Origin: Chloroflexota bacterium
GTDB taxonomy: Bacteria > Chloroflexota > Ktedonobacteria > Ktedonobacterales > Ktedonobacteraceae
Length of the DNA stretch: 36,208 nucleotides
Direction: 5' to 3'
Assembly: GCA_902810755.1 (NCBI GenBank)
Contig: CADDYT010000062.1
Coordinates: 1-36,208, forward strand
Shown: positions 1-36,203 of the stretch, in pieces
Layout of the letters: each line of letters begins with the position of its first letter
Numbering within the stretch: the first letter of the stretch is position 1
Position numbers and translations under genes: made by a program
Notes under the pieces: model-generated
Told to the model about the DNA's origin: nothing
The model's input: only the letters and a program-made list of their open reading frames with translations
The model's database searches: none

Positions 1-37
1 GTTTCAATCCCGCAAACGGGAACCTCGGCCTTTAGCC
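1..37 (-). CRISPR. Leader-proximal CRISPR repeat (array continues past base 1)
   Basis: On the minus strand the repeat ends in a short hairpin (CCCG, loop TTTG, CGGG) followed directly by ATTGAAAC. That is the usual 8-nt 5' handle left by Cas6 in type I and III systems. Only one copy lies in the window, so the right-hand boundary (about 36-41) is uncertain; an imperfect second hairpin (CTCGGC...GCCTGAG) spans it. Orientation follows from the handle and from the promoter just upstream at 49-77, so spacers lie to the left, outside the window. The adjacent cas2, cas1 and cas4 support the call. Confidence 0.85.
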
Positions 38-48
38 TGAGTGGTTGT

Positions 49-77
49 AGTATAGCATGAGAAGCGGGATGAATCAA
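49..77 (-). promoter_or_regulatory. CRISPR array promoter in the leader
   Basis: On the minus strand TTGATT (77-72) and TATACT (54-49) are separated by exactly 17 nt, a good sigma70-type promoter. The predicted start of transcription, near 42, lies a few bases before the first repeat, as expected for pre-crRNA transcription towards the left. The match to consensus and the position are seen; activity is inferred. Confidence 0.75.
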
Positions 78-78
78 G

Positions 79-218
79 GGTTTGCGAGAGTCTCTTTTTT
101 TGGGGGGAATTTGCGGGGAAACATCCAGGGATTTTTGGGCCTGTTTCCCTCTCATCCCCCTTCTGAGGGGTTGCGAGAGTCTCTGCGTGGAGTTGGGGTC
201 ACTGAGACTCTCGCAACC
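79..218. repeat. CRISPR leader with a motif present three times
   Basis: The leader between the cas2 stop (228) and the first repeat carries GGTTGCGAGAGTCTC at 169-183, its perfect inverted copy GAGACTCTCGCAACC at 204-218, and a third near-copy at 79-94 with one extra T, in the same orientation as 169-183. The first two could fold as a 15-bp stem with a 20-nt loop. The remainder is rich in runs of T, G and C. A role in integrase docking or in transcription is possible but unproven. Confidence 0.7.
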
Positions 219-227
219 GTGTTCCGC

Positions 228-533
228 TTAGACGAGGAAGAGGACTTCCTCGGCTGGTGGTGGCCCTCCCACCGTTTCGACTTTGCTCACACAGTTTGCG
301 CATAAGGGATAGAAACGCACACTATCCTGTTTGGGTTCGAGATGCTCTGCCAGTTTGACTTGCAACAGGATCAGTTCTTTCCTGCTCAGGAAACACTCGA
401 ATAAGGAATACTGTGTCCATTTGCCATATCCGAGCAGGATTTTATGCACTTTTGTGCGCCTCCTGTCATCAGGAATATCATAGGCCACGACATAGCAGGT
501 AGATTGCTGGGGGGTTCTGGTCTGCCGTTTCAT
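228..533 (-). CDS. cas2: CRISPR-associated endonuclease Cas2
   Basis: This 101-residue protein is of normal Cas2 length. The ferredoxin-like core opens with VVAYDIPDDRRR, where Asp19 is the conserved metal-binding aspartate, and continues with a typical helix (KVHKILLGYGKWTQYSLFEC). Cas2 forms the dimeric centre of the Cas1-Cas2 integrase that inserts new spacers at the leader end of the array. The gene starts 24 nt after the cas1 stop behind AGAGGG, and is the last gene before the leader, the usual order in adaptation operons. The C-terminal tail (VGGPPPAEEVLFLV) is rather long and proline-bearing. Confidence 0.95.
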   Translation of the reverse strand: MKRQTRTPQQSTCYVVAYDIPDDRRRTKVHKILLGYGKWTQYSLFECFLSRKELILLQVKLAEHLEPKQDSVRFYPLCANCVSKVETVGGPPPAEEVLFLV

Positions 534-557
534 CTTCCCTCTTTGATCTCCTGCTTG

Positions 558-1655
558 CTATTTCACACGCAATGGGGGGTAGTGGTCAATCTCTGCGGTG
601 AGAACTTTGCCAAGGAGCCTGCCTTGCAATTCCAGACAGCGGCGGTAGCTCACCTTATAGCCAAAGATGGGGTGTGTGATTTCTTCGTTGAGCCGCTCTT
701 CAAATTGCGTGAAGAAGACCTTGCGCCGCTCGTCTTTGAGACGATAGGCTCCCAGTTCGACGAGGAAATCATTGGGCGCCAGCATGCGCTTATTGAGCAT
801 GGTCAAAACGATGGAATCCACAATGATCGGGCGAAATTCTTCCATCAGGTCCAGGGCCAGGGAGGGGCGTCCGTAGAAGGAACTGTGCAGGTAGCCGACG
901 TAGTGGTCGAAACCGACGAGTTGCAGCGCGCTGGCCACTTTGTTGGTGAGCAGTGAGTAGCCAAAGCTGAGAAGCGCGTTGACCGCATCGGTGGGTGGAC
1001 GCTTGACTCGGCCTGGGAACGGCCACTGCCTGGGGTCGGAGAGCAGCTTGCCGAAGCACTGAAAGTAGGCGGCGCTGCCCGCTCCCTCCATGCCCAGAAT
1101 CGTTTCCAGGGGGGTACCCTCGACCCGGTTGTCTCCGCCTACCAGCCGGTGCGGAGCATGTGCCTGTTCCACCGGCAATGTTGCCAGCTGGTGCAGCAAT
1201 GCCGTTATCTGCTCAATCGCCTGCCTCATTTCAGCATCGGATTGGCGGCGCTGGTAGCGTTGCAGCATGGTGCGCTGATTGGCAAGTTTGCCGATGACGA
1301 AGCGGCGGGCCAGGTCGCAGCGTTGGGCCATGTCCTGGTGGGCGCGGTACTGGGCCATGCGCAGGATAGCGTTTTTGGAGAAGGGCGGCGAGAGGCGGCC
1401 CTTGAACTGGCCGTAGGGTCCCAGGTAGGTGATCTCGATGTTGCGTTCCAGTAAGAGGTGCAGTGCCGAGGCTGTCAGCGTGACCTCTCCGAAAACGACC
1501 ACCTCATCGATTTTGATCAGCGGGATGTGTTCTTTACGCATCGGCGTCGGCGCAGCTCCATTTTTGCCCTTCCTCGCGGGAATTTCCACCAGCAGGCTAT
1601 CTTCGCCATCACGCCTGACAAAGGCGTATTCTTCGGTCAGATACAGCGTTGGCAC
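558..1655 (-). CDS. cas1: CRISPR integrase Cas1
   Basis: Cas1, 365 residues, catalyses spacer integration with Cas2. The N-terminal beta domain (about 1-85) is followed by the all-helical catalytic domain. The conserved metal ligands are visible as Glu190 (LGMEGAGSAAYF), His257 (GYLHSSFYGRPSLALDL) and Asp269/Glu272 (DLMEEFRP). The start is a GTG whose G is shared with the TAG stop of cas4 (TAGTG), preceded by AAAGAAAGGTGG, which indicates translational coupling. The open frame extends much further upstream, but that part is cas4 read in another frame. The protein is slightly longer than most Cas1 proteins because of a linker around residues 135-180. Confidence 0.95.
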   Translation of the reverse strand: MPTLYLTEEYAFVRRDGEDSLLVEIPARKGKNGAAPTPMRKEHIPLIKIDEVVVFGEVTLTASALHLLLERNIEITYLGPYGQFKGRLSPPFSKNAILRMAQYRAHQDMAQRCDLARRFVIGKLANQRTMLQRYQRRQSDAEMRQAIEQITALLHQLATLPVEQAHAPHRLVGGDNRVEGTPLETILGMEGAGSAAYFQCFGKLLSDPRQWPFPGRVKRPPTDAVNALLSFGYSLLTNKVASALQLVGFDHYVGYLHSSFYGRPSLALDLMEEFRPIIVDSIVLTMLNKRMLAPNDFLVELGAYRLKDERRKVFFTQFEERLNEEITHPIFGYKVSYRRCLELQGRLLGKVLTAEIDHYPPLRVK

Positions 1656-2275
1656 TAATATCCACCTTTCTTTGCTAGCAGCTGTCGTACTTCTTCCGGC
1701 ATACACATAGGCAGCAGGCTGCAATTGGGGCAGCGCGCCGCCAGTTCGCCGGAGAGCGGCGGCGGCGGCGTTGCCAGCGCAGAAACTTGCAATGCCTGCA
1801 CGATGGCTGCCTTCGTCATGGCACGCAGCTGCGGCGTGAAGTCGACGCGCACTCTGCGCCGCGAGCCGACATAATAGATGTAGCCGTGCGCAATGGGCGC
1901 CTTGCCGGGCTGCCGCTCTTCCAGGCACAACGCCTGCGCGCACAGCTGGATGTGGTCGTTGAGCCACTGGCCCTGCTGCCCGTGTTTGTATTCCACGGGA
2001 ACCAGCAGGCCCGCCCGCTCCTCGATCACATCGGCAAAGCCGGAGAGGCGCAGCGTCTCGCTGTAGAGGTACAATCTCGTCGTCTCGATCTCCCCTTCCT
2101 CCGATGTGTGCGTCCCGGCCTGGTGGACGCGCTGATGCTCCAGCGTCCCCTCCAGTACAAACTCGTTGACCAGCGTTTCTCCCTGCACATACTGGTAATA
2201 AAACTTGCGCGGGCAATACTCCAGCGCATTGAGCGAGGAGATAGGGATGATCTCTACCTGTGATGTGTTGCTCAT
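1655..2275 (-). CDS. cas4: CRISPR-associated exonuclease Cas4
   Basis: This 206-residue RecB-family nuclease helps trim and orient prespacers for Cas1-Cas2. The four iron-sulfur cysteines are present: Cys21 (YCPRKFYYQY) and Cys182, Cys185 and Cys191 (CPNCSLLPMC) near the C-terminus. The PD-(D/E)XK core is seen as GFADVIEE followed by VEYKHG. ATG at 2275 was chosen because AAAAGGAAAG lies at normal spacing; an in-frame upstream ATG would place repeat DNA (about 2335-2360) inside the protein. The stop overlaps the cas1 GTG. Cas4 beside a reverse transcriptase-linked cas1-cas2 is unusual. Confidence 0.93.
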   Translation of the reverse strand: MSNTSQVEIIPISSLNALEYCPRKFYYQYVQGETLVNEFVLEGTLEHQRVHQAGTHTSEEGEIETTRLYLYSETLRLSGFADVIEERAGLLVPVEYKHGQQGQWLNDHIQLCAQALCLEERQPGKAPIAHGYIYYVGSRRRVRVDFTPQLRAMTKAAIVQALQVSALATPPPPLSGELAARCPNCSLLPMCMPEEVRQLLAKKGGY

Positions 2276-2334
2276 GGTTGTGCTTTCCTTTTCCTGTTCG
2301 CTTGTATTGGGACATAGGCGCCGGGAGGGCGTCA

Positions 2335-2422
2335 GGACGGAGGCAAGCTCCGTCCCTACCAACCACGAAGCGGTAGCTATGAATCCGTAGGTGAGTAGGG
2401 GCGGAGCTTGCCTCCGCCCTGG
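2335..2422. repeat. Inverted pair of short hairpins between cas4 and the RT gene
   Basis: Two related hairpins face each other: GGACGGAG-GCAAG-CTCCGTCC (2335-2355) and GGGCGGAG-CTTGC-CTCCGCCC (from about 2399). Each has an 8-bp stem, and the two units are inverted copies of one another, flanked by CCTACC and GTAGG. The pair lies in the RT-cas4 gap and could act as an intergenic RNA processing or attenuation structure. The GTAGGGGCG part resembles the element at 34553-34627. Confidence 0.75.
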
Positions 2423-2456
2423 CTACTACACATCTCCGTCCTGCCCCATCACAATG

Positions 2457-3971
2457 CTATCGTTTCAATATGCTCATCTGACGATAGGTGCGCAGTTGGA
2501 CGCCGTTGGTAGTGGCGAAGACCCGTTTGTGATCGTCGATGCGCTGCCAGTAGCGGCCCAGGAGCCAGTCGCGAGTTTTGCCGGGGTGGCGTTTGCCTGC
2601 CCAGGTGAGCAGGCGCTGCTCCAGCAGGTCGTCGTAGCGGCTCATGATGGCCGCCGGGACGACTCCGTTGTAGTAGTTTGCCCAGCCCAGAATCAAGGGG
2701 TTGAGTTCCTCGATGACGCGCGCCTGAGGGGCCGTTTGCAACTGCTGCAACTTTTGATCGATGGCTGCCAGGTGCCTCCTGTTCGCCTCCTGCGTCGGGC
2801 TGACAATAGTTTTCACCGTTGGTGCGCTTACCGTCGTTGGGAGTGGCGGAGATGGCCTGCGCTCTGGTTGGATAGATGTTCGCTCTCGTCTCATGCCCGT
2901 TCTCACATCGATTTGCTCCCTCTTGCCCGTTGCCTGTCTCTCTATCGCCTCCTGCTGGATGTTGAAACCCAGGAAGTTGAAGCCGACCTGTCCCTGATAG
3001 GGGGTCAGCGTATGCGTGACGCGGGTCTTTTCCGCGTGCAGTTGCAGGCCCATCATCGCTAACCAGTGCCGCACGCGCCGGATCGCCTGTTGCAGCTCTT
3101 TCAGATCAGCATGCAGAATCACGAAATCGTCGGCGTAGCGCACCAGCAGTGGCTGTCCCCTGGCAGAGCCTTGCGCCACCACTGCTTCCATCCCATGCAG
3201 CGCGACGTTCATCAACAGGGGAGAGAGTACGCCTCCCTGTGGAATGCCCGTCTGGCCCGGGTAGAAGGTGCCGTCATCGATGACCCCCGCCTTGAGCCAG
3301 CCGTTGATGGCCTCGCGTAGCGCCGGAAAGGTTTGCAACTTCTCCAGCACGACTGCGTGGTCGATATGATCGAATGCTCCCTCGATATCGGCATCGAAGA
3401 CAAAGACGGGGCGGTGTTCAATCGCCACCAGAATGGCGGCGATGGCGTCATGCGCCCCACGACCGGGACGAAAGCCGTAACTGTGGGCCTCAAAACGCAC
3501 CTCCCATTCCGGTTCGAGCGCCAGTTTCACCAGCGCCTGCTTGCAGCGATCAATCATGGGCAGGATGGCGAGCGGACGCCGCTCGCTGGTGCCGGGCTTG
3601 GCAATCCAGACGCGCCTGGCGGGCAGTGGGGGCTGATGATTCCAGTTCCTCGGAGCAATCGCCGCTGCCATCGCCAGTTGCTGTTCCGAGGTCAGGGATT
3701 TGACGCCATCGACTCCGGCAGTGTCCCGCCCCTGATTCTCCTCGGCTACCCGGCGCACCGCCAGCAGCCGCGCCGCCTCCGATTCCATCAACCGCTGCTG
3801 CAAGCTCTGCATAGCCTGCCTCTCCCCGCGCTGGCTGGCCTGCGCAATCTGCTTCTGCATGCGCACCACCTGCTGCTCCAACGCGCTCCACGAGAGTCTG
3901 TTGTGGGCCTGATTTGCGGATGGTGACACCTGTCGGGGATGCTGAGGCTCTCGGACGTTTCTCTCTTTCAT
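2457..3971 (-). CDS. Group II intron-type reverse transcriptase, CRISPR-associated, free-standing
   Basis: This 504-residue reverse transcriptase has an RT N-terminal domain (about 25-90, ending TAGVDGV), palm motifs with FDADIEGAFD (Asp193, Asp195), IPQGGVLSPLL (about 243-253) and the catalytic YADD (279-282), then GFNFLGF, and a maturase/thumb domain with ILGWANYYNG. No HNH endonuclease domain follows. A proline- and arginine-rich insert of about 50 residues (about 341-395) separates palm and thumb. No intron domain V or VI structure is seen on either side, so this is not a mobile intron. RTs of this kind next to cas1 can support spacer acquisition from RNA in type III systems; here that role is inferred from the co-directional cas4-cas1-cas2. 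The ATG at 3971 has no clear Shine-Dalgarno sequence, so the start is tentative. Confidence 0.88.
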   Translation of the reverse strand: MKERNVREPQHPRQVSPSANQAHNRLSWSALEQQVVRMQKQIAQASQRGERQAMQSLQQRLMESEAARLLAVRRVAEENQGRDTAGVDGVKSLTSEQQLAMAAAIAPRNWNHQPPLPARRVWIAKPGTSERRPLAILPMIDRCKQALVKLALEPEWEVRFEAHSYGFRPGRGAHDAIAAILVAIEHRPVFVFDADIEGAFDHIDHAVVLEKLQTFPALREAINGWLKAGVIDDGTFYPGQTGIPQGGVLSPLLMNVALHGMEAVVAQGSARGQPLLVRYADDFVILHADLKELQQAIRRVRHWLAMMGLQLHAEKTRVTHTLTPYQGQVGFNFLGFNIQQEAIERQATGKREQIDVRTGMRRERTSIQPERRPSPPLPTTVSAPTVKTIVSPTQEANRRHLAAIDQKLQQLQTAPQARVIEELNPLILGWANYYNGVVPAAIMSRYDDLLEQRLLTWAGKRHPGKTRDWLLGRYWQRIDDHKRVFATTNGVQLRTYRQMSILKR

Positions 3972-4173
3972 ATGTTGTGTCTGGCTCGCTTTCTCTGTAC
4001 CCCGGCGATTGATCGGTCACCGATGACTACTGACCAATACATTAGCGATGCTCACAATCAATCACAGTCCTGCGGGTCTGCCTGTTGGCCCCCGTAACCC
4101 TGAAGGCGCTCAATTGATCGGCCAATAGGAGCCACACGATACGATCAATCGCACGGAGATGATCGGCCTGCAA

Positions 4174-5586
4174 TCAGATGTGACAGAGGAAGCAGCGTTT
4201 GTTTCTTCGTTCAACGCTCTCGGTATCCTCGTAAATGCTCATGGAGCCGTTGTTTTCATAGACCAGCACGGGGACATGCCTGTGCGCCTCGGTATACTGG
4301 TTGACCAGCACCTCGACGGCCATCGTCGCCAGGGCGGCGTTGAGCGTCTTGACGGCAGGCTCTTTGACATCCTGCCCCGTCACGTAGCCGCGTTTCACCA
4401 GCGCCTCGCGAATGCCCTGATCGGGGTGCCGCTCGCTGGCGACCTTGATCGGGTTGATGCGGTTGAGGCATTGCAGGCACAGGCAGTCGCCCACCCTGGC
4501 CGTAATCACCTCGCCGCTCATGTCTTCCAGCTTGCCATCCTTCACGCTGATGTTGACGCCGAGGGAGAGCAGCGGCACAAAATATTGCACCGACAGTTCC
4601 TGCGCGCGCAACCGGCTCGAATGATTATCCGTCGCCACGATCATCCAGTCCGAAAGCGCCAGCACACCTTCCATCTCGCGGTCGTGGACATCCTTCTGGT
4701 ACGCTCGCACCGTCGCCTTCGGGTTGATCCGGCTCAGATGCCGCCTGACCACCTCCACTTTCGGGCGCCGCTGCTGCGCATCCTCGTAGTACGCTCCTAC
4801 CACCCGGTTGAGATTCGACATCTCCAGCACATCCGGGTCAATCACATTGATCTCGTGAAAGCCCATATGGATCAGATGTTCCGCCACGATTGACCCCAGG
4901 CCGCCCACGCCGACGATGGAGATGACCTGCTCGTGCATCATGCTGCGCAGCGTCTCCAGTCCCAGGGCCAGCACGCTGCGGTTGAACATCTCCTCGCCGT
5001 CTGCCTGCGCTTTTTTTTCCTGCCGCCCCTGTCGCTCCTGCCTTTCATCCGTGTCCTCGCGGAAATCGGAACTGGCGATGCTCTCCACACTCGTCTGTGT
5101 CTTGAGCAGCGCGTGTCTGGCGACAATGGAACCACCGTTGCTCAGCGTCCAGACGCGAGCCGAATATTGTCGCTGCGAGAAGACAATGCTGGCGTAGTGA
5201 ATTCCTTCGAATGTCTCGTTCAAAAACCGGAAGAAGCCCTCTTCATCTCCATTGTCCGTTGCCGAAAAGGAGACCATGCCCTGCGTAAAGGGATGCGTGT
5301 GGACATCGATGATGGTATCGACATCGTACCTGCCGGTCAGTTCCGCCAGCGCGCGGTGGATGAAGTCCTTCCTGATGTGCAGAAACGCCACACTCTGCTG
5401 GTTATAATCCCCCTGCTCGGGAAAGAGCAGATCGATCACGGTGATAATCGTAGAGCCATCGATCTGGCGCGTCTTGCCCAGCAAAATGGCGAAATGTTCC
5501 TTTGACCGGTCTGCAAGCAATTGTGTCCGTAGATACCGCAAATCGCCATGTTTAAACTTGATCAGGTAACGCGAATAGGTACTCAC
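4174..5586 (-). CDS. JAB/JAMM peptidase fused to a ThiF/E1-like adenylyltransferase
   Basis: A 470-residue fusion. Residues 1-165 form a Prok-JAB metalloprotease: Glu30 (SKEHFAILLG), His96 and His98 (DVHTHPF), Ser108 and Asp111 (SATD) make a complete zinc site. A charged linker (about 175-200) leads to an E1/ThiF Rossmann domain (about 205-470) with GVGGLGS (226-232), IDPD (Asp250, Asp252), NLNR (258-261) and ATDN (Asp320). Zinc ligands appear as CLCLQC (368-373) and CFLC (465-468). By family, E1 adenylates a ubiquitin-like protein and JAB cleaves ubiquitin-like precursors or conjugates. GTG at 5586 is chosen because AAAGGAG precedes it; upstream codons are repeat DNA. No cysteine lies in the usual E1 catalytic loop (about 385-415). 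The partner E2-like gene is upstream and the RT gene downstream. Confidence 0.88.
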   Translation of the reverse strand: MSTYSRYLIKFKHGDLRYLRTQLLADRSKEHFAILLGKTRQIDGSTIITVIDLLFPEQGDYNQQSVAFLHIRKDFIHRALAELTGRYDVDTIIDVHTHPFTQGMVSFSATDNGDEEGFFRFLNETFEGIHYASIVFSQRQYSARVWTLSNGGSIVARHALLKTQTSVESIASSDFREDTDERQERQGRQEKKAQADGEEMFNRSVLALGLETLRSMMHEQVISIVGVGGLGSIVAEHLIHMGFHEINVIDPDVLEMSNLNRVVGAYYEDAQQRRPKVEVVRRHLSRINPKATVRAYQKDVHDREMEGVLALSDWMIVATDNHSSRLRAQELSVQYFVPLLSLGVNISVKDGKLEDMSGEVITARVGDCLCLQCLNRINPIKVASERHPDQGIREALVKRGYVTGQDVKEPAVKTLNAALATMAVEVLVNQYTEAHRHVPVLVYENNGSMSIYEDTESVERRNKRCFLCHI

Positions 5587-5639
5587 AGCCTGCTCCTTTC
5601 TGCGTTGCAACATAAACCGTATCGCCCCAGGCCGCCCGC

Positions 5640-5800
5640 CGCCCCACAGGCCGACCGCAAGGGTCGGCCCTACTATATACGCCTCCACCGCGCGCTGTCA
5701 GCGCGCTGACGGGATCGTGTATAGTAGGGGTACCCCCATAGGCGTTCACTTAAGCCCGTGCCAGCGCCAGGCAGGCCACCCCTTGCGGCTATCCTGGGGC
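5640..5800. repeat. Mosaic palindromic repeat between the E1-JAB and E2 genes
   Basis: A variant palindrome has arms around CAGGCCGACCGCAAGGGTCGG and GTGTATAGTAGGGG, with a GC-rich loop containing CAGCGCGCTG. It is followed by the connector motif (ATAGGCGTTCACTTAAG) and another half arm (CAGGCCACCCCTTGCGGC). It fills most of the 231-bp gap, so the E1-JAB gene may be partly uncoupled from the E2 gene. Confidence 0.8.
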
Positions 5801-5817
5801 GGGGCCAGTTGAGCCTG

Positions 5818-6501
5818 CTAATCCTCCGTCCCCGACAGCACTTCACTGATCAGCGTGAAGTAGGTCCACAGGTTGTCGCCCTTGCGCCAGTCACCGGGGC
5901 GCTGGATGGGCGCGGGCTGCCAGCTACCGGGGTTGATGTAGACGCAGTACCACTTCCAGCCCTGTGTCAGTGGGTCGCTGCAGGCTTCATGGTAGGCCGC
6001 CTGGTAGAGGTGGCCGTTGACGGAGAGCGGGATGTCTTCCTTCAGGTAGAAGCCCACCGGGGGCAGTTCGGGATACTCCGTCGGGAAGACCACCAGCAGA
6101 TCGGTGGTGCGAGCGATGCTGTGCCAGATGGGCGGCAGCACGTAGTCGTTGGCAATCATCCAGTCGGCATGTTCCTCGTCAAAGGAGACGCCGCGCTTGA
6201 ACAGCTTCTCGGCGATGTCATAGACCTGCTCGGTAATGATCTGCTTCGAGAGCGCGCTGCGATCACCCCCGTAGGTCACGCCTTTCGTGCGATCAGGAAT
6301 GGTCGTGATCTTGACCGGATTACCGAAGCGATCATACAACTCCGCCGGCTTATAGGTATAGTTCGGCTGCAGCGGCCTGAATACCGCCCCCTGCTGGATG
6401 ACTGGCCGCCGACCCATACCAGGATTCAACTGCTGGATCAGTTGCTGGCCGGTAATGCCCTGCGGCGGCACCTGAATGCGCCTGCCATTCACAATAGCCA
6501 T
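5818..6501 (-). CDS. Ubiquitin-like N-terminus fused to a prokaryotic E2-like domain
   Basis: A 227-residue protein. Residues 1-75 (NGRRIQVPPQGITGQQLIQQ, then a beta-rich stretch) look like the bacterial multi-ubiquitin/beta-grasp family. Residues about 85-227 look like the Prok-E2 family E fold: VVFPTEYPELPPVGFYL (138-153) carries the E2-type YPxxPP motif, followed by GWKWYCVYINPGSW with Cys186 as the candidate catalytic cysteine, and a C-terminal helix (WTYFTLISEVL). The first ATG (6507) is only 2 nt from AGGAGG, whereas the second (6501) is 8 nt away, so 6501 is chosen. By analogy, E2 would accept the activated modifier from the E1-JAB protein. Assignment of the N-terminal domain is less certain than that of the E2 domain. 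Confidence 0.72.
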   Translation of the reverse strand: MAIVNGRRIQVPPQGITGQQLIQQLNPGMGRRPVIQQGAVFRPLQPNYTYKPAELYDRFGNPVKITTIPDRTKGVTYGGDRSALSKQIITEQVYDIAEKLFKRGVSFDEEHADWMIANDYVLPPIWHSIARTTDLLVVFPTEYPELPPVGFYLKEDIPLSVNGHLYQAAYHEACSDPLTQGWKWYCVYINPGSWQPAPIQRPGDWRKGDNLWTYFTLISEVLSGTED

Positions 6502-6559
6502 GTGCATATCCTCCTTTTCCTTTGTTTGCCTTACCTGTCGTTCCTCGTCGCGAACGTGG

Positions 6560-7222
6560 CTACAGGTTCAGATCATCGATAGGGTCTGCCACCAGGTCTG
6601 GCGCGAGGGCAACGATCTCGCTATCTTCCGATCGGGCGGCCACCTTCACCGCGTCCTCATCATCGCCTGCCTGCGACTCGATGAGGTCTTTGTACTGCTC
6701 CTCCACGCGCTCCTCTTCCGCGCTCTCCTGCGCCGCGAGGTAGCCTTCGTAGTACACCTCCAGATTGATGAAGCCCGAACACTTCATCAGCAGATCGGCT
6801 CCCGCCGTTTCGGGAAATGCGGCCACCTCAACGCGGATGCCGGACTTCCTGACCTCCTGAATGAGCGGAATAAAGTCCGCGTCGCCGCTGGCCAGCACGA
6901 TGATGTCGGGCTTCACCTGGTAGGCTGCCTTCAACACATCCATCGTGATCTCGACATCAAAGTTACACTTGTACGTCCCGCCCGCGATATTACCCAGTTT
7001 GGTCGTGACGATATAGCCGGAGCGCCAGAGATCCTCAATCTCCGCGTCCAGCCGATGCTCATTGCGCGGGTTGATCGGCACATAGCAATACGCTTCCACC
7101 AGGAAACGATGCTCGCCGACGTAGCGGAGCAAATCCTGGTAATCCACGCGCAGCCGCTTCTCCCTGCTCGCCCGGTTGATATTGGCGTAATCCAGGAAGA
7201 AGACCACTTTTTCCTTTTCCAT
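6560..7222 (-). CDS. NYN-domain (LabA/DUF88-like) putative RNase
   Basis: A 220-residue protein whose first 160 residues are a NYN (PIN-like) domain: VVFFLDYANINR (Asp11, Asn14), a central GGTYKCNFDVEITMDVL (Asp89, Asp95) and IIVLASGDADFIPLI (Asp114, Asp116). These acidic residues form the usual metal-dependent RNase site. The C-terminal 60 residues are acidic and probably disordered. ATG at 7222 is preceded by AGAGGAGGGTG. It is the first gene of the co-directional minus-strand series, 58 bp before the ubiquitin-like/E2 gene, and is divergent from the XRE-TPR gene. A role as effector or RNA-processing enzyme is inference; NYN proteins are common and not confined to defence. Confidence 0.85.
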   Translation of the reverse strand: MEKEKVVFFLDYANINRASREKRLRVDYQDLLRYVGEHRFLVEAYCYVPINPRNEHRLDAEIEDLWRSGYIVTTKLGNIAGGTYKCNFDVEITMDVLKAAYQVKPDIIVLASGDADFIPLIQEVRKSGIRVEVAAFPETAGADLLMKCSGFINLEVYYEGYLAAQESAEEERVEEQYKDLIESQAGDDEDAVKVAARSEDSEIVALAPDLVADPIDDLNL

Positions 7223-7273
7223 GACACCCTCCTCTGCGGGAAGCAATTTCCCACCAATCGCTGACTCAACATC

Positions 7274-7318
7274 GTGGAGGAACGCTCGATCGCGTTCCTC
7301 CACTCGCGGCGGAGTATA
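7274..7318 (-). promoter_or_regulatory. Perfect palindrome beside a -10 box in the NYN/XRE divergent region
   Basis: GTGGAGGAACGC (7274-7285) and GCGTTCCTCCAC (7292-7303) are perfect 12-bp arms around TCGATC. On the minus strand a TATACT box (7318-7313) lies 9 bp upstream, so the palindrome begins at the likely start of transcription of the NYN gene. That is a typical operator position, and the XRE-family protein encoded divergently is the obvious candidate binder. No convincing -35 was found. Confidence 0.6.
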
Positions 7319-7423
7319 GCGCACAGGAAGTCGGCAATTTTGCAACTTTGCAACGCCTGAATGCCTTTACATAAAGCGAGAGCAGCAGCGTCATACAGAT
7401 CAAACCGGGAGCAAGACGAGGGT

Positions 7424-8944
7424 ATGGCAAGAGGCTGGCGCAAGAGAGACTATAACCGGCAGGGCTTCGGTCAGCAGGTCAGAGGATATCGTCTGGCCCT
7501 GCGCTGGTCTCTTGGACAACTCGCGCAACAGAGTGGACTGAACAAGGGAACGTTGCAACACCTTGAAAAGGGTGAAACGCATATACCGCCAGCGAAGCGG
7601 CAGATCATCATCGATGTCCTCACGCAGGCGCTCCAGCAGGCCGGGCAGCCCGTCAACCGGGAAGCGTTCTTGCAAAGGGCAGGTCTTGAGGTCGATGCCA
7701 TCCTCCGCCCATCATCTCCCTCTCAAGAACAATCGGCAACAGACGCACTAGCAGGCGATCAGGAACCGGAACTGCGCCATATGCCGCATGAAGCGGTGGC
7801 AGAGTTACTCAACCGGCAGCACCGCTGGCAACTGGCAGGCACCTTCTGGCTGCTCGCCGCGCGCGAGGCCAGGCAAAGCGGAGACCGGGCAAAATGGAGC
7901 CGATGCACAATACGAGCGGGATTGATGGCGCTCACCGGCAGCCAGTTTGAGATCGCCGAACAGAGATTCAAAGAGGTGATCGAGCAAGCTCAGGCCGGGG
8001 TACCCGCGCCCGCAGCGGTAGAGGCCCATATTCGGCTGGGCTGGCTCTACTACGAACAGGACCGATTTAGCGAGGCGACCCACATGCTGCGCACAGCTGG
8101 CAGATTGTTGCAAAATCTCGCCCGCAAAGAGAACACCGATTCAGAATCGCTGTGTTTCTCCGCACACGGCTCCATCCTTCCCTACGAAGGCCACGAGCTG
8201 ATCGTCGCGCTGGAAGCGACAAGGGCGCACTGGCTGGGAAGAACCTACGTGGACTGGGGCATGCAACAAGACAATCAGGAGATGATTCAGGCAGGTCTGG
8301 CAAAGCTCCAGAAAAACAGGCAGTACGACGGCCAGCTTGGACACTATCCAAACGTAGGATTCGCCCTGCTCCGTCAAATCCCCGCACTGCTTTATCAGGG
8401 GGAAGTAAAGACGAGCGAACGCTACCTGGCGCAAAGTGAAGAACTGCTCGACCGGCAGGGACCAGCTCAAGGGCATCTTGCCCTGCATAAAGGCATGTTC
8501 GCGCTCGAAGAGCAGCCCGAAAAGGCAATGGATATTCTGGAAAACGCCCGCGAAGGCTTCACAGAGCCGATCTTCTATGCACACGGATTATCCGAAACAT
8601 TCAAAGAGATCAGCAGCCTGTATTTGATGGACGACAGGAAAAGCGAGGATGTGCGCGCCCTGGAATATGCCCTGGCGGCAGCCGTCCTCCACCCGTATAG
8701 TCGCAATATAGAACTGCTGCAACTGGCCGCCCGCAGAATGTACTGGCGCATAGGCGAAAACCGCTCCGCGTTTAACAATTTCTGGCAAACGCTGGAAGAG
8801 CGGCTCTGGCGCATGGACGCAGAACCGTTCTCCGACCTGAGATATTTGATGAAGGCTTTCCCTGAGAACGACATATCTTATGTAGAGACTGCCCTGGAGA
8901 AAGCCCGAAATGCGGTACAGGATGAGCTTTCCGGGAAGGGATGA
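7424..8944 (+). CDS. XRE-family HTH protein with TPR-like helical repeats
   Basis: A 506-residue protein. The N-terminal Cro/C1-type HTH (about 13-70: VRGYRLALRWSLGQLAQQSG, then GTLQHLEKGE) is followed by a long all-helical region with TPR-like spacing (RHRWQLAGTFWLLAAREARQ; EQRFKEVIEQAQAG; HIRLGWLYYEQDRFSEATHM). This resembles large XRE-TPR regulators frequent in Ktedonobacteria and Actinobacteria, which may sense a ligand or peptide through the TPR part. ATG at 7424 is used because the HTH begins soon after; the upstream ATG at 7361 has no Shine-Dalgarno sequence. It is divergent from the NYN-E2-E1 series and precedes cas6, so it probably regulates one or both sides. Confidence 0.85.
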   Translation: MARGWRKRDYNRQGFGQQVRGYRLALRWSLGQLAQQSGLNKGTLQHLEKGETHIPPAKRQIIIDVLTQALQQAGQPVNREAFLQRAGLEVDAILRPSSPSQEQSATDALAGDQEPELRHMPHEAVAELLNRQHRWQLAGTFWLLAAREARQSGDRAKWSRCTIRAGLMALTGSQFEIAEQRFKEVIEQAQAGVPAPAAVEAHIRLGWLYYEQDRFSEATHMLRTAGRLLQNLARKENTDSESLCFSAHGSILPYEGHELIVALEATRAHWLGRTYVDWGMQQDNQEMIQAGLAKLQKNRQYDGQLGHYPNVGFALLRQIPALLYQGEVKTSERYLAQSEELLDRQGPAQGHLALHKGMFALEEQPEKAMDILENAREGFTEPIFYAHGLSETFKEISSLYLMDDRKSEDVRALEYALAAAVLHPYSRNIELLQLAARRMYWRIGENRSAFNNFWQTLEERLWRMDAEPFSDLRYLMKAFPENDISYVETALEKARNAVQDELSGKG

Positions 8945-9474
8945 TAAGGCGTGTGTCAGGGCGCAGGCCGACTTCAGAGTTGCGAACATAAGTGTCGCCG
9001 CAGGCCATCCGCAGTGGCCCTAATATACGACGATTGTTTGTGAGACCTGGGAAACCGTCGCGTAGAGTAGGGCCACCCCCATAGGCGTTAACTTAAGGCC
9101 GCCCCAGGCCACCCGCCAGGGGTGGCCCTCCTCTAGACGGACGTATCGTAGGGTTTGTGGAGCCGCCGCCTATAGTAGGGCCACCCCTGGCGGGTGGCCT
9201 GCTTCGCGCTCGCGCGGGCTTAAGTGAACGCCTAAGAGGGCCACCCCTTGCCGGTGGCCTGCCCGGCGCTCGCCCCGGCTTCCGTTAACGCTTCTGGGGC
9301 TGGCCCTACTCTAGACGCCCCCTCCCCCAGCGGCACGAACGCATCGTCTCTCGTAGGGCCACCCCTTGCGGCTGGCCTGCGGCGCGGCTATTGTTGATAA
9401 ATTGTCACGCTCGTTGTACTCTACTCTGATGTGATACCTGGCGGGTGGCCTGCGGCGCGGCTATCGCTGATAAA
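8945..9474. repeat. Dense mosaic of palindromic repeats before cas6
   Basis: This roughly 530-bp non-coding stretch holds several arms of the palindromic family (GGCCACCCGCCAGGGGTGGCC and variants) in both orientations, separated by connector copies containing GGCGTTAACTTAAG or CTTAAGTGAACGCC. Two near-identical direct repeats of about 33 bp (about 9371-9403 and 9441-9474, core TGGCCTGCGGCGCGGCTAT) end it. I see no gene, tRNA or transposase here. The structure resembles bacterial interspersed mosaic elements. Confidence 0.85.
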
Positions 9475-9476
9475 GC

Positions 9477-9505
9477 TTCTCAATACATGGGTTTTGATGT
9501 ATAAT
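9477..9505 (+). promoter_or_regulatory. Likely cas6 promoter
   Basis: TTCTCA (9477-9482) and a perfect TATAAT (9500-9505) are 17 bp apart, 27 bp upstream of the cas6 ATG. The -35 overlaps the end of the palindromic repeat block. cas6 thus appears to have its own promoter, independent of the XRE-TPR gene. Confidence 0.7.
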
Positions 9506-9532
9506 CGTGTGTGTAGAAAGGAAGGTCGAGGT

Positions 9533-10495
9533 ATGGAAAAGCTCTCTATCGGTACGGCGCCCGCGAAATTGTATGCGTTTTTGTTGAAAGTACGCCCGCT
9601 GGAACAGGGGTCGGTGATGCCCTTCTCCGGCGAACTGGTTCACGCGGCCTGGCTGCGCTGGCTGGAAGCAACCGCGCCGGAAGTGGCGCAGTGGCTGCAC
9701 GAGGGCAACAAGCGACGATTGTTCACCTGCTCCAGCCTGCAATTTCCCCTGCCCGCCGCTCGCGTGCGCGAGGCCGAACGCGAGCATCTGTTCCTGCCCG
9801 TCGACCCCGAAAAAACGTATACCGTGCGCATCACGCTGCTGCTCGGCGAACTCTTCCCGCTCTTTCACGAGGCGCTGACAAACTTCCAGCTCCAGAAACA
9901 GGGGGAACAGCCTCCTTTCATGCGCATCGGCAAGCACCTGTTCCTGCTCGAAGAGGTCATCATCGGAGACAACGATACATCGGGCTGGAGCGGCTTCGCC
10001 TCCTTCACGCAACTGGTCGAGCAGGCGCAAAATCGGCGCCTGGGTCGCGTCGAGCCGCTGATACTGGAATTTGACTCGCTGACGACCTTCAGCCGGGGCA
10101 GCCAGCACCAGAAAAGCTACCCCGGTCATCATGCCCGCCTGCCGCTACCGGCATACATCTTTCCAGGGCTGGCGAGACGCTGGCAGGAACTGGCCCCATC
10201 CGAACTGGCCCCTTTCGTGCAGGTACGGCGCATCGAGGAATACTGCGACGATGAGGGCATCATCATCTCCGATTACCACCTCAGAACGCACCAGCTAAAA
10301 TTTACCAATCATCCGCAGACCGGCTTCCTGGGAATGTGCAAGTACCTGCTGCGCGCCCCCGACGAACCGACAACGCCAGAAGCCCCGCTGACCGTCCGCC
10401 AGCAAATCCTCCTGCTCTCCCAACTGGCTTTCTACACCGGCGTCGGCTACAAAACAGCGATGGGCATGGGCCGAACGCGGGTGGTCGAGAAGTAA
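9533..10495 (+). CDS. cas6: CRISPR pre-crRNA endoribonuclease Cas6
   Basis: A 320-residue Cas6. The N-terminal RAMP domain includes FSGELVHAAWLRWLEA, whose histidine is a candidate catalytic residue. The C-terminal glycine-rich loop GVGYKTAMGMGRTR is the Cas6 family hallmark. It cuts repeat RNA below the hairpin, leaving an 8-nt handle; the repeat at 1-37 has precisely that architecture. AAGGAAGG precedes the ATG at 9533; the longer upstream frame is repeat DNA. It is on the opposite strand from cas1-cas2 and 9 kb away, and no effector genes adjoin it, so the interference complex must be elsewhere or absent. Confidence 0.9.
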   Translation: MEKLSIGTAPAKLYAFLLKVRPLEQGSVMPFSGELVHAAWLRWLEATAPEVAQWLHEGNKRRLFTCSSLQFPLPAARVREAEREHLFLPVDPEKTYTVRITLLLGELFPLFHEALTNFQLQKQGEQPPFMRIGKHLFLLEEVIIGDNDTSGWSGFASFTQLVEQAQNRRLGRVEPLILEFDSLTTFSRGSQHQKSYPGHHARLPLPAYIFPGLARRWQELAPSELAPFVQVRRIEEYCDDEGIIISDYHLRTHQLKFTNHPQTGFLGMCKYLLRAPDEPTTPEAPLTVRQQILLLSQLAFYTGVGYKTAMGMGRTRVVEK

Positions 10496-10514
10496 ACTAC
10501 AGCGCAAGCCTTGC

Positions 10515-10687
10515 CGCAGGCCACCCGCCAGAGGTGGCCCTACTATACTACGTTCTTTATCATGCGCATGACCAGCGACCCGAACAGCGCAGGCCACCCG
10601 CCAGAGGTGGCCCTACTATACTACGGGCGTTCGTAGAGCATGGAGAGCCGTCTGGTATAGTAGGGCCACCTCTGGCGGGTGGCCTGC
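10515..10687. repeat. Three palindromic repeat arms after cas6
   Basis: Two direct copies of an arm beginning GCAGGCCACCCGCCAGAGG and ending TACTATACTACG (10515-10551 and 10588-10624) are followed by an inverted copy ending GGCGGGTGGCCTGC (about 10655-10687). The second and third can form a long hairpin that may serve as a cas6 terminator. All share the AG variant in the arm, which suggests local duplication. Confidence 0.85.
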
Positions 10688-10758
10688 GAACGGCACCTGC
10701 CCCGTGATCAACACGCAGAACCTGCACTCAGGTCGGCCTGCGTTATGGCCTATATAGC

Positions 10759-12807
10759 CTACACCCTTGCTCCCTGGCCCTGTACTCTCACTTTCCCCTG
10801 CGCCCGCCCATCTTCCTCGCGCGCTTCCGTCTCGGCCCCCGTCTGCACCTTCATGGCGCTGGAGAGGGTGAGGCCGAGGGCGCTGAGGCAGGCCATGCCG
10901 GTGACGCACATGAGCAGCGCGGCCCAGGGGTGAGAGAAGACGAACATGGCCGTCACTTTGTCGGCGGGCAGGTGGAGCAGGCCAGCGAAGACGAGCAGGC
11001 CGATGGCCTCGTTGCTGCCAACCTGGCCCGGCGGCGTGGGCAGAATGTAGAACATGTTGTAGATGGTGTAGCCGAAAATGGCCGTGCCGAAGGGGACGGG
11101 GTAGCCAATCGTCCAGAAGGCAAGCATCGCAAAGAGGCCATCGAAAATCACGGCGACGCAGGTGAGCAGCATGGCCGGAATGAAGATGCGCGGCTGGCTG
11201 GCCCCCATCAACAGCGAGTCGACGAAGCCGGTGGCGAAACCTTCGACCTTGCTACCGATAGCCCCCGGCAGCAGGCCCGTCATTTTTTGCAGCAAGCCAA
11301 TGGCCGTGTCGCGTTTCCAGGCCGCCAGTAGCACAAAGAAGATCAGCCCGACCAGCAGCCCGCCAACGACAGCCAGCACAATCCATAGCTTGATGTCCAT
11401 CTGGATGTCCAGCAGCGGCACAAGGGCCATGATGAAGAGCGCGGGCATCAGATCCAGCGCCTTGTCCATCGCCACCGTTGGCAACGACCGGCTGATGGGA
11501 ATACCGGCAATGCGTTTGAGCATCAGGCTCTTTGCCACCTCACCCCCGCGTATGGGCAACAGGAAGTTGAGGAAGATGCCGACCAGAAACAACTGGATAG
11601 CCTTGAACGTGCTGACCCTGCCAACCGGGTTCAGAAAGAGCTTCCAGCGCACGCCACGAATGGAAAAGGCCGTCAGAAAAGCCACGCCCGACAGCAGGGC
11701 AAGGATGATGCCGCGCGGCGTCGTCAGGTTCTGCTTCAAGATGCCGACCGTCTCCGGGATATCAACAAACTTCGAGACCAGGTACAGCAAGCCAATGCCA
11801 ACCAGCAGCCCGATTGTGACCCTGACCACCGGCTTGCCGAGAAACGCTTTCCAGGCAGGCACCGGCTGCGCAGGCACGGGCGCGGCCATCGTCGGCGGCA
11901 GCATCTGCCCGAACGGCCTCTCCCCGTACAGGTTGACCACCGGCAGCGGCCCCGTCTGCTGGATACCCCGCGGCCACCAGCCCTCCTCCCCATCCGGCGG
12001 TAAGGGAATATCGCCGCCATCCACGCTGCCCACATCATCGTCTCGCACGCCACCGTCCCCCGCAGCGGCCACGTCCCGTAAGCCATCGGCACCCGCAGCG
12101 GCCACCCCACGCAGGCTGGCCACGTCCCGTAAGCCATCGGCACCCGCAGCGGCCACCCCACGCAGGCCGACCACGTCCCGTAAGCCATCGGCACGCAGGC
12201 CACCCGCCAGGGGTGGCCCTACTATATACGCCCCCCGTTTCCCATCCCCCGCGCCATCGCTCGCCCGTGTATAGTAGGGCCACCCCTGGCGGGTGGCCTG
12301 GGGGGTGGGGCTGACCTGCGCGGTGGGGCTGGCCTGCGCGGTGGGGCTGGCCTGCACCGGGCTGCTATCCTGCTGGGGGCTGCTGGCCTGGGAAGACGGA
12401 TCGCCCTGAGCGGGTATGCTGTTCCGGGGGGCGGTAGGCTGCTCGTCTGGCGACCCGACTGGCATTGCAGAGACGCGCACGACAGGCAGCATACCGCTGA
12501 GACGCATAAGGTGGGCGGTACTTTGCTGCGTGATATCGAGAACGGCAGACATCGTATCGGTCGGTGTCTGTGGAACAGGCAACATGGTGGTGCCGGGTAA
12601 GGAGCGCGGAGGATGTGGCGTGTGCATAATGTTCATCACGGCTGTGGTTTGCATGGCAACATCGACGCCGGGGAGCCAGGCGAGACGGTCGCTGCTGTCT
12701 TCCTTCCACTCCTCGACGGCGGGCTTCGGCGTACAGGGTTCCTGCGCTCGAACGAGCCGTACCGGATGCAGGCGCGGCGGTGAAGCTGGCGGGATAGGAT
12801 GTTGCAT
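10759..12807 (-). CDS. Flippase-like membrane protein (lysylphosphatidylglycerol synthase TM-region family)
   Basis: A 682-residue protein. Residues 1 to about 300 are cytoplasmic, rich in Pro, Ser, Ala and Gln and probably disordered; the rest has 8 or more membrane helices with family motifs (FSIRGVRWKLFL; NFLLPIRGGEVAKSLML; YILPTPPGQVGSNEA). Such UPF0104-like domains occur in MprF and in putative lipid-linked sugar flippases. ATG at 12807 follows GTGAGG; the open frame upstream of it is only a shadow of the next gene. The disordered part encodes short SPTAQ-type repeats, a complete palindromic repeat (12196-12300) and 17-residue tandem repeats (12069-12193). The location after an epimerase and glycosyltransferases suggests transport of an envelope glycolipid. 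Confidence 0.85.
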   Translation of the reverse strand: MQHPIPPASPPRLHPVRLVRAQEPCTPKPAVEEWKEDSSDRLAWLPGVDVAMQTTAVMNIMHTPHPPRSLPGTTMLPVPQTPTDTMSAVLDITQQSTAHLMRLSGMLPVVRVSAMPVGSPDEQPTAPRNSIPAQGDPSSQASSPQQDSSPVQASPTAQASPTAQVSPTPQATRQGWPYYTRASDGAGDGKRGAYIVGPPLAGGLRADGLRDVVGLRGVAAAGADGLRDVASLRGVAAAGADGLRDVAAAGDGGVRDDDVGSVDGGDIPLPPDGEEGWWPRGIQQTGPLPVVNLYGERPFGQMLPPTMAAPVPAQPVPAWKAFLGKPVVRVTIGLLVGIGLLYLVSKFVDIPETVGILKQNLTTPRGIILALLSGVAFLTAFSIRGVRWKLFLNPVGRVSTFKAIQLFLVGIFLNFLLPIRGGEVAKSLMLKRIAGIPISRSLPTVAMDKALDLMPALFIMALVPLLDIQMDIKLWIVLAVVGGLLVGLIFFVLLAAWKRDTAIGLLQKMTGLLPGAIGSKVEGFATGFVDSLLMGASQPRIFIPAMLLTCVAVIFDGLFAMLAFWTIGYPVPFGTAIFGYTIYNMFYILPTPPGQVGSNEAIGLLVFAGLLHLPADKVTAMFVFSHPWAALLMCVTGMACLSALGLTLSSAMKVQTGAETEAREEDGRAQGKVRVQGQGARV
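12069..12193 (-). repeat. 51-bp tandem repeat inside the flippase gene
   Basis: Two full 51-bp units (12069-12119, 12120-12170) and a partial third encode a 17-residue repeat, DGLRDVxxLRGVAAAGA. The period is a multiple of three, so copy number can change without breaking the frame. The unit lies in the disordered cytoplasmic segment. Confidence 0.88.
12196..12300. repeat. Palindromic repeat inside the flippase coding sequence
   Basis: Perfect 31-bp arms (12196-12226 and 12270-12300), beginning CAGGCCACCCGCCAGGGG, enclose a 43-bp loop. The whole element is read in frame as about 35 residues (including AYIVGPPLAGGL) without a stop. Confidence 0.9.
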
Positions 12808-15052: not shown

Positions 15053-15142
15053 AGTCTGTCAGTCCTTCCATAGCTGTCGTGTTTTATCTATATATATAAA
15101 TGTATTCGGTTGCTGTTTGTTGGTTCTGTAGCTGCTACGCCA

Positions 15143-15264
15143 CCCCACGCCAGGCCCCCCGCAAGGGGTGGCCCTACTATATACGCTCCCATTCCCCATC
15201 CCCCACATCCGATGGACGTGTCGTGTATAGTAGGGCCACCCCTTGCGGGGGGCCTGGCGTGGGG
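15143..15264. repeat. Palindromic repeat overlapping the 3' end of the GT39 gene
   Basis: Perfect 39-bp arms (15143-15181 and 15226-15264), beginning CCCCACGCCAGGCC, enclose a 44-bp loop. The right arm, the loop and the start of the left arm are the last codons and stop of the GT39 gene; the left arm may also act as its terminator. Confidence 0.92.
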
Positions 15265-22540: not shown

Positions 22541-22785
22541 GGCCCGCAAACAGCCCACTACAGGCCACCCGCAAGGGGCAAACCCTTCAGTTCCTGGTAC
22601 CGTCCTACGGCGGCCCGCAAACAGCCCACTGCAGGCCACCCGCAAGGGGTGGCCCTACTCTACCCGAACAGTCCCACAGGCGCGCGTAGTATAGTAGGGC
22701 CACCTCTTGCGGGTGGCCTGCCTGGCGCTCGCACCGACTTAAGTTAACGCCTATGGGGCCACCTCTTGCGGCTGGCCTGAGGGCG
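22541..22785. repeat. Mosaic palindromic repeats after DUF3090
   Basis: A direct repeat of 38 bp (22541-22578 and 22612-22649, one difference) begins with GGCCCGCAAACAGCCCACT and runs into an arm. The second copy pairs with an inverted arm (to about 22720, GCGGGTGGCCTG). Then come the connector GGCGCTCGCACCGACTTAAG and TTAACGCCTA and a further half arm (GCCACCTCTTGCGGCTGGCC). No gene is seen in 22528-22991. Confidence 0.88.
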
Positions 22786-22807
22786 GGGCAGCGGGACAGC
22801 ATGAAAC

Positions 22808-36082: not shown

Positions 36083-36098
36083 CTCCCCTGACTCTCCG

Positions 36099-36203
36099 CA
36101 GGCCACCCGCAAGGGGTGGCCCTACTATATACGACCACTGCCAACGCTCACAAAGCCGTGCGAGCGATCGTATATAGTAGGGCCACCCCTTGCGGGTGGC
36201 CTG
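36099..36203. repeat. Palindromic repeat after hflX
   Basis: Perfect 36-bp arms (36099-36134 and 36168-36203), starting CAGGCCACCCGCAAGGGGTG and ending ATATACGA, enclose a 33-bp loop. It is a textbook member of the family and may terminate hflX transcription. Confidence 0.92.

Follow-up and report, generated by a model that had tools for sequence, protein, structure and literature searches.

Among the described bacterial systems that use an activating enzyme (E1) and a conjugating enzyme (E2) for a ubiquitin-like protein (Ubl), operon type 6e was described by Iyer, Burroughs and Aravind in 2006 with an E2-like domain without a conserved cysteine (PMC1779556), and in the cyclic oligonucleotide-based antiphage signalling system (CBASS) the conjugated C-terminal residue is Gly or Ala (PMC10097602). 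On the side of clustered regularly interspaced short palindromic repeats (CRISPR), the clade 9 reverse transcriptases (RTs), from Chloroflexi, are separate from Cas1 (Toro 2017, PMC5541045), and the legend to Fig. 6 of Altae-Tran 2023 (PMC10910872) gives ThiF, RVT, NYN, ThiS and Prok-E2 as CRISPR-linked; the association that we describe here is therefore in part already catalogued. Our subject is a cassette of three genes, for an NYN-domain ribonuclease (RNase), a Ubl-E2 fusion and a JAB-E1 fusion, that lies directly upstream of an RT-cas4-cas1-cas2 module in a stretch of 36,208 nucleotides (nt) from a Chloroflexota bacterium of the Ktedonobacteraceae (assembly GCA_902810755.1, contig CADDYT010000062.1, positions 1 to 36,208), which we call the window. 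On balance, we favour the reading that this cassette is a Ubl-conjugation auxiliary module, of the 6e/Bub kind, of type III CRISPR-Cas loci that often bear an RT.

The locus and its closest relatives

On the minus strand of the window, from 7222 downwards, the order is NYN, Ubl-E2, JAB-E1, RT, cas4, cas1, cas2, a presumed leader and one repeat, and the features are as follows.

1..37, minus strand: CRISPR repeat, single copy, the leader-proximal end of an array that continues beyond the window (sequence reading)
228..533, minus strand: cas2 (PF09827, 5.5e-24)
558..1649, minus strand: cas1, type I-D-like Cas1d (PF01867, 2.8e-92; NCBIfam TIGR04093, 434.5 bits, cut-off 385)
1655..2275, minus strand: cas4 (PF01930, 4.6e-16; start at 2275 inferred)
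2457..3971, minus strand: reverse transcriptase, group II intron-like, YADD (PF00078, 1.4e-37, plus RVT_N and GIIM)
4174..5586, minus strand: JAB-E1 fusion, 470 aa, GTG start (ThiF PF00899, 3.3e-33; N-terminal Prok-JAB, 1.5e-4; BubCD match; conserved residues)
5818..6501, minus strand: Ubl-E2 fusion, 227 aa, beta-grasp-like Ubl (1-74) plus Prok-E2_E with Cys186 (PF14462, 1.1e-5; alignment; model and fold search)
6560..7222, minus strand: NYN-domain RNase, 220 aa (PF01936, 3.9e-23; motifs)
7361..8944, plus strand: helix-turn-helix (HTH_31) and tetratricopeptide repeat (TPR) protein, a divergent neighbour and possible regulator (PF13560, 8.5e-7)
9431..10495, plus strand: cas6 (PF10040, 2.2e-14; Cas6d by PADLOC)

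Gene starts for JAB-E1, Ubl-E2, NYN and Cas4 were set from Shine-Dalgarno-like motifs and homologues. The run of seven co-directional genes from NYN to cas2 that a sequence-only reading of the window had proposed is borne out by a Pfam match for each, although the Prok-JAB match of JAB-E1, at 22.1 bits, is under its Pfam cut-off of 25; the RT gene, with its YADD motif intact, adjoins cas genes that include cas1-cas2. Of the array proposed in the same reading, the window contains the repeat at 1-37: because the sequence starts inside the array, one repeat and no spacer is visible. This 37-nt repeat resembles the one present in 39 copies in the G043 array described below. The scan covered part of the window's open reading frames (ORFs), and among those scanned we found no Cas10, repeat-associated mysterious protein (RAMP), CARF gene or effector complex, and no CD-NTase match; ten further ORFs at 13.9-31.5 kb and an LPG-synthase-like ORF at 10.8-13.3 kb are ordinary genes. 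The closest relatives of the window's sequences are Ktedonobacteraceae, with Dictyobacter in that place on the E1 tree.

The best comparison is a second genome of the class Ktedonobacteria (G043, contig C44), which has the window's order plus a type III-D effector. One strand carries an array of 39 repeats, cas2, cas1, cas4, RT, JAB-E1, Ubl-E2 and NYN, and the other carries genes for an NB-ARC-HTH protein, a TPR protein, Cas6, a CARF-PDDEXK nuclease, a Cas10 palm domain, Cas5_IIId and Cas7_IIId. Elsewhere in G043 a second cas4-cas1-cas2 and cas6 locus (L068 13875-16181 and 4601-5584) has no RT and no cassette, and its array has a near-identical repeat, of the same kind as that of the window. 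The RTs beside cas1 in G043 and in a further genome, G045, are 70% identical to the window RT; in G045 a gene read by eye as HTH-NB-ARC occupies the gap where the cassette would be. In Dictyobacter vulcani an array stands on one side of the cassette and a decayed RT, recognisable in its N-terminal part only, on the other; in Thiovulum the cassette has an array on each side, with RAMPs more than 100 kb away. A second NYN gene directly follows JAB-E1 in Thiovulum (L072 8388-12040). HTH proteins with TPR or NB-ARC regions stand divergent to the cassette or the RT in three Ktedonobacteria-class loci (window 7361-8944, L042 10920-13870, L066 14137-15951), and are candidates for a shared regulator.

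The cas4-cas1-cas2 genes of the window are tightly packed (gaps of 5 and 24 nt); the gaps before them are 58 nt for NYN/Ubl-E2, 231 nt for Ubl-E2/JAB-E1, 202 nt for JAB-E1/RT and ~181 nt for RT/cas4. The genes are co-directional, as proposed, but gaps of this size do not support a single operon. No minus-strand terminator-like site was found in the 202-nt gap by a consensus scan, a weak one that found fewer sites than in shuffled sequences. A dispersed palindrome sits in the 231-nt gap, as one palindrome pair among REP-like (repetitive extragenic palindromic) dispersed repeats around TATAGTAGGGCCACCCCTTGCGGGTGGCCTG at 5629-5805, 9014-9461, 10499-10695, 12178-12300, 15133-15265, 22541-22788 and 36081-36203. 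Rfam microRNA matches in the window fall on these palindromes; they are spurious because of the dispersed repeats, and were disregarded.

How often is the cassette linked to CRISPR?

We aligned 20 JAB-E1 homologues and used the alignment for a pattern scan of genome contigs, which returned 24 loci; since it is built on two peptide patterns the scan is not exhaustive, and a contig scan with a single JAB-E1 sequence gave no relative where the alignment query succeeded. G043 was added from a class-wide search; this gave 2 positives among 47 genomes, and on that count we rejected a core function in Ktedonobacteria. The family set comprises 24 loci at no less than 43% identity, that is, the scan loci minus the distant actinobacterial L023 and L024, plus the window and G043. 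A locus counts as CRISPR-linked here when its contig carries, no more than 20 kb away, an array or a gene for Cas1, Cas2, Cas6 or a RAMP. Thirteen of the 24 are so linked: the window, G043, Dictyobacter, Thiovulum, two Chromatium loci, Lamprobacter, Thiorhodospira, C. okenii, Chromatiaceae L015, Methylococcaceae L016, Halochromatium and Thiocapsa. Dictyobacter and Thiovulum are linked by arrays alone, Lamprobacter (~17 kb) and Halochromatium (~10.4 kb) only under the 20-kb limit, and the gene after JAB-E1 in Chromatium L010 is a Cas6 homologue by similarity only. By group, the linked loci include 3/3 in the class Ktedonobacteria and 8/9 in Chromatiaceae/Ectothiorhodospiraceae, two of the eight only beyond 10 kb.

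Is this more than chance neighbourhood in a defence island, the null hypothesis of the sequence-only reading? The counts do not favour pure chance: a Cas1, Cas6 or RAMP match lies within 10 kb at 7 of 25 loci against 0.37 expected (P 3e-8), and within 20 kb at 10 of 25 against 0.68 expected (P 1.3e-10), in a crude chance model of the 24 scan loci and G043 that takes five loci without contig coordinates as unlinked and omits some weak or neighbouring matches. On an E1 tree of 44 rows the distribution of the CRISPR label takes 7 changes; shuffled labels take 14.6 on average, and 0 of 500 shuffles came as low; the linked rows are 13/23 of the family, 3/3 cyanobacteria, 3/4 Actinomycetes and 0/14 others. 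L022, which is partial, and the Rhizobium gene L087, which is split, are not in this tree, and long branches make its deepest splits unsure. A phage collection gave no match at E 1e-10.

The association extends to more distant relatives. JAB and E1 are unfused in Actinomycetes, where a CRISPR-blind search of 394 genomes found four positive ones, three of them linked. In Protofrankia, Ubl-E2, JAB, E1, RT, cas1, cas2 and cas6 are consecutive and adjoin an array; in Actinomadura the set lies close to the end of a contig, and genes for Cas6 and III-D-like RAMPs are 5-10 kb off; G1252 has an array beside the set and cas1 fragments; and on the 12-kb contig of G1307 no cas gene was found with the queries used. 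Among cyanobacterial plasmids, all three records at least 59% identical to the Microcystis protein (itself included) are CRISPR-embedded. Microcystis NIES-2481 has an array, cas1, NYN, a coiled-coil gene, a free Ubl, E2, JAB-E1, TIGR03985, cas10, cmr3 and cmr4; Nostoc N6 has RT, cas1, cas2, an array, the NYN set and CRISPR-associated genes; and Aphanizomenonaceae TIOX110 has cas2, the NYN set, Cas10 and Cmr3.

We also inspected 15 other plasmid loci as controls, picked for different genera, not randomly, from searches with 137, 2 and 30 matching records. None has an annotated CRISPR gene within 7-10 kb, an absence that is approximate because PLSDB gene tables are incomplete and Abditibacteriota genes are unnamed. 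A gene annotated multiubiquitin is carried by 11 of the 15, ten of these also carrying DUF6527, whereas the cyanobacterial CRISPR loci have neither; we therefore rejected the idea that all plasmid relatives are of one kind. Several control loci sit beside other defence genes. For example, Bradyrhizobium has a multiubiquitin/E2/ThiF/DUF6527 cassette a few kb from genes annotated as CBASS (L094 9374-21269), and Nostoc C052 has one a few kb from a nucleotidyltransferase-SAVED pair (L098 8550-14713).

Cassette proteins and predicted processing

The closest solved structure to JAB-E1 is Citrobacter BubCD (PDB 9ea4, E 1.4e-38), in a profile match across both domains. Bub/6e, and not CBASS Cap2/Cap3, is the characterised system nearest to the cassette. 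In all 23 JAB-E1 rows the E1 nucleotide-site residues and the residues of JAB that we take to be its JAMM motif are invariant. Only four cysteines (370, 373, 465 and 468) are conserved in the family, and these look like a zinc site.

The AlphaFold model of Ubl-E2 has a mean predicted local distance difference test score (pLDDT) of 88.7, with a low-confidence stretch at residues 71-73. All 50 matches listed by Foldseek are E2 enzymes or complexes containing one (best E 5.6e-3, none below 0.001); BubB is among them at rank 15, and the profile match of the E2 domain to BubB is weak (0.059). Across 28 Ubl-E2 rows, Cys186, within a W-K-W-Y-C motif, is invariant and His164 is present in 27. The Ubl part closes with a PDRxK(G/A) motif in which residue 74 is Gly in 24 rows and Ala in four, three of the Ala copies being from CRISPR-free Firmicutes. 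The cyanobacterial Ubl is a free protein, of which two of three copies end in VKG while the other has eight more residues after VKG; its family match is weak (PF14453, 0.005), and the E2 matches there are 3.5e-5 and 0.0012. A Gly-Gly end (VTYGG in the window) was considered for the Ubl and rejected, since that motif is not conserved and PDRxK(G/A) is. From the Gly or Ala at 74, the ends of the free cyanobacterial Ubls and the Gly/Ala ends of CBASS, we predict that JAB cleaves Ubl-E2 after residue 74. The acidic motifs of NYN, presumably catalytic, are kept.

Reverse transcriptases and CRISPR types

An RT lies close to the cassette in the window, G043, Thiorhodospira, Methylococcaceae L016, Protofrankia and Nostoc N6, at a distance of 12-19 kb in Thiocapsa and Lamprobacter, and on another contig in Actinomadura. 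The RTs of Thiocapsa and G045 do not match the simple YADD pattern. In an RT tree of 23 rows, several of them short, the window and G043 RTs, to which that of G045 is sister, fall within a set of longer RTs (585-640 aa) of their own class that we regard as group II intron RTs. The RTs of Chromatiales/Methylococcaceae and those of Actinomycetes and Nostoc lie on other branches, far from these. A single RT clade travelling with the cassette was rejected, the RTs falling in separate lineages, and therefore either cassette and RT were paired on more than one occasion or the RT has been exchanged.

Effectors are III-D or III-D-like in G043, G007 and G023, and III-B by annotation in two cyanobacterial plasmids. 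ORFs of Cas10 size that bear GGDD, presumably the mark of the Cas10 cyclase, are present in the G043, G007, G010, G023, Microcystis and Aphanizomenonaceae loci. The sequence-only reading drew a link to an RT module; an RT is frequent, but the cassette is more aptly said to be linked to type III CRISPR loci, many of which have an RT, than to RT modules alone. Fused, unfused and free-Ubl forms of the cassette occur alongside various RT lineages and both III-D and III-B effectors in five phyla (one of these, Campylobacterota, by arrays alone), and the association would accordingly be either ancient or repeatedly assembled.

Two further gene families lie near these loci. A CARF (Cas_NE0113)-adenosine deaminase gene, which we take to be Cad1-like, directly follows JAB-E1 in Thiocapsa (L020 11470-13677), and a homologue lies by cas6 in Halochromatium (L052 3078-5192). 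A family of 725-984 aa ("Big") adjoins the cassette or lies in its vicinity in Chromatiaceae and Deltaproteobacterium L018 (L017 3237-5678, 5701-8340; L020 14328-16772, 16815-19328; L012 7340-10291; L006 12050-14557; L007 18423-21200; L018 19170-21344), with no Pfam match save a weak TPR in L018. Its I-D-E motif (LIDETG), of a type that we assume to be the one of RNase H-like DUF3800 proteins, is followed by helical repeats. The fold matches of its model (mean pLDDT 67.8) are generic helical-repeat proteins, none below E 0.001, and for this reason we assign no function.

Possible functions and competing explanations

What might the cassette do? The conjugation chemistry can be inferred from the motifs together with the Bub and CBASS precedents. 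JAB would cut the Ubl-E2 precursor after PDRxKG, freeing a Ubl that ends in Gly74; E1 would adenylate Gly74, as its motifs suggest, and hand the Ubl to Cys186 of E2, a transfer that would be direct because E1 has no conserved cysteine beyond the four zinc-ligand-like ones. Beyond this point we speculate: E2 might attach the Ubl to a protein of the same locus, a first guess being the NYN RNase or the RT-Cas1-Cas2 complex, whereby RNA processing or the capture of RNA-derived spacers might be switched, with JAB reversing the tagging.

Several observations weigh against a module devoted to CRISPR. Eleven of the 24 family loci have no visible CRISPR feature within 20 kb: L001, L002 and L008 (Selenomonadaceae/Quinella), L005, L009, L022, Methylovulum L003, L013, Allochromatium L014, Deltaproteobacterium L018 and Methylococcaceae L019; two of these are on contigs of 3-5 kb (Methylovulum L003 4.5 kb, L013 3.4 kb). 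Among them, the Firmicutes/Synergistota copies are 0/6 linked. The linkage statistics ignore shared ancestry and defence-island clustering. G045 has RT-cas4-cas1 and cas6, yet tblastn found no trace of the cassette; no Cas1, Cas6 or RAMP was found in the Dictyobacter genome, and neither Cas1 nor Cas6 in that of Thiovulum. No RT was found beside the cassette in the Microcystis or Aphanizomenonaceae plasmid, NYN was not seen in the Actinomycete loci, and the window has long gaps between genes. The sequence-only reading would have fallen had such genes been mostly away from CRISPR loci in relatives; this test goes against the null hypothesis in Ktedonobacteria, Chromatiaceae/Ectothiorhodospiraceae, cyanobacterial plasmids and Actinomycetes, and in its favour in Firmicutes/Synergistota.

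These points feed the most serious competing explanation, which is that the cassette is an independent defence, a Ubl-controlled RNase with NYN as effector, that shares islands with type III CRISPR and has no functional contact with it. The CRISPR-free Firmicutes/Synergistota copies keep the NYN-UblE2-JAB-E1 order, Dictyobacter retains the cassette though no cas genes were found, and the RT-cas genes of G045 are taken to work without one. We nevertheless regard it as rather unlikely: the cassette is interleaved with cas genes on one strand in the window, G043, L016, Protofrankia, C. okenii, Microcystis and Nostoc N6, it is paired with different RT lineages, and none of the 15 other plasmid relatives is near CRISPR though several adjoin other defence genes. 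Less likely again is that the cassette tunes the type III signal generator by placing Ubl on Cas10 or on an effector with a CARF domain, similarly to the action of Cap2/Cap3 on cGAS. The Cas10-size GGDD ORFs of six loci, the CARF nuclease of G043, the CARF-adenosine deaminase gene next to JAB-E1 in Thiocapsa and the C-terminal Gly/Ala rule of CBASS (PMC10097602) agree with such a role; however, no Cas10 or CARF gene is among the scanned window genes, and the cassette of the window and G043 is on the strand of the adaptation genes, not on that of the effector. Finally, the RT could be an ordinary group II intron maturase that came by chance to lie between JAB-E1 and cas4, so that there would be no RT-CRISPR module at all. 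The window RT retains RVT_N and GIIM domains and nests among the 585-640 aa RTs, but it is shorter (504 aa), the RTs of G043 and G045 adjoin cas4-cas1 as well, and the nine Rfam matches (E up to 1) at positions 1-12000 include no group II intron RNA family; we judge this explanation highly improbable.

Returning to the favoured reading of a type III auxiliary module, the position of the cassette favours adaptation proteins or NYN as the target. Provided that a functional link exists, we would give these two together nearly an even chance; phage or host proteins tagged on type III activation are distinctly less probable, and Cas10 or the signalling effectors slightly less probable than those. 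That a self-processed Ubl on RT-Cas1-Cas2 or NYN of type III loci gates the passage from RNA to heritable spacers is a tentative proposal, more doubtful than the module reading itself. Some CRISPR systems may, in short, be under reversible protein tagging. If true, an auxiliary CRISPR module would work through reversible protein modification and not through a second messenger or nuclease alone, placing a ubiquitin-like pathway inside bacterial adaptive immunity. The control of RT-driven spacer capture and the natural substrates of 6e/Bub-type pathways would become testable, with the conserved residue 74 (Gly/Ala) and Cys186 as direct targets for point mutation.

Comparison with known systems

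The cassette shares with Bub (Citrobacter BubCD/BubB, PDB 9ea4, 9eae) a JAB fused N-terminally to E1, and differs from it in the fusion of Ubl to E2, the NYN partner and the CRISPR context. With 6e it shares an E1 with N-terminal JAB, a Ubl fused to a C-terminal E2/RWD-like domain and a sporadic distribution (PMC1779556); Cys186 is invariant here, and NYN and CRISPR are outside the 6e description in what was available of that paper. Because Cys186 is present in 28/28 rows, we regard the family as a variant rather than a typical member of 6e. CBASS (PMC10097602) uses E1, E2 and JAB chemistry in defence too, but Cap2 combines E1 with E2 and targets cGAS, whereas here JAB is joined to E1 and Ubl to E2, with no CD-NTase seen beside the window cassette. 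Like RT-type III CRISPR-Cas systems (PMC5541045, PMC5513706), the locus has an RT beside cas1-cas2, which is separate from Cas1 as in Toro's clade 9, and in G043 a III-D effector.

The sequence-only reading knew of no described system that combines Ubl conjugation with CRISPR adaptation. Term look-ups returned no ubiquitin, ThiF, JAB or NYN in the main texts of Silas 2017 (PMC5513706), Toro 2017 (PMC5541045) and Toro 2019, no ubiquitin, ThiF or NYN in the available text of the 2025 CRISPR classification (PMC12669027), and no 'ubiquitin' in the main text of Altae-Tran 2023 (PMC10910872). The statement has to be qualified for the families, which the Altae-Tran legend lists; the Prok-E2 given there is family A, whereas the match here is to family E, and the entries probably overlap with the cyanobacterial form found here. 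In the open-licence PMC literature searched we did not find the cassette read as a complete Ubl-conjugation pathway, its occurrence in fused and unfused form in several phyla, its setting with RT and III-D, or the predicted processing site.

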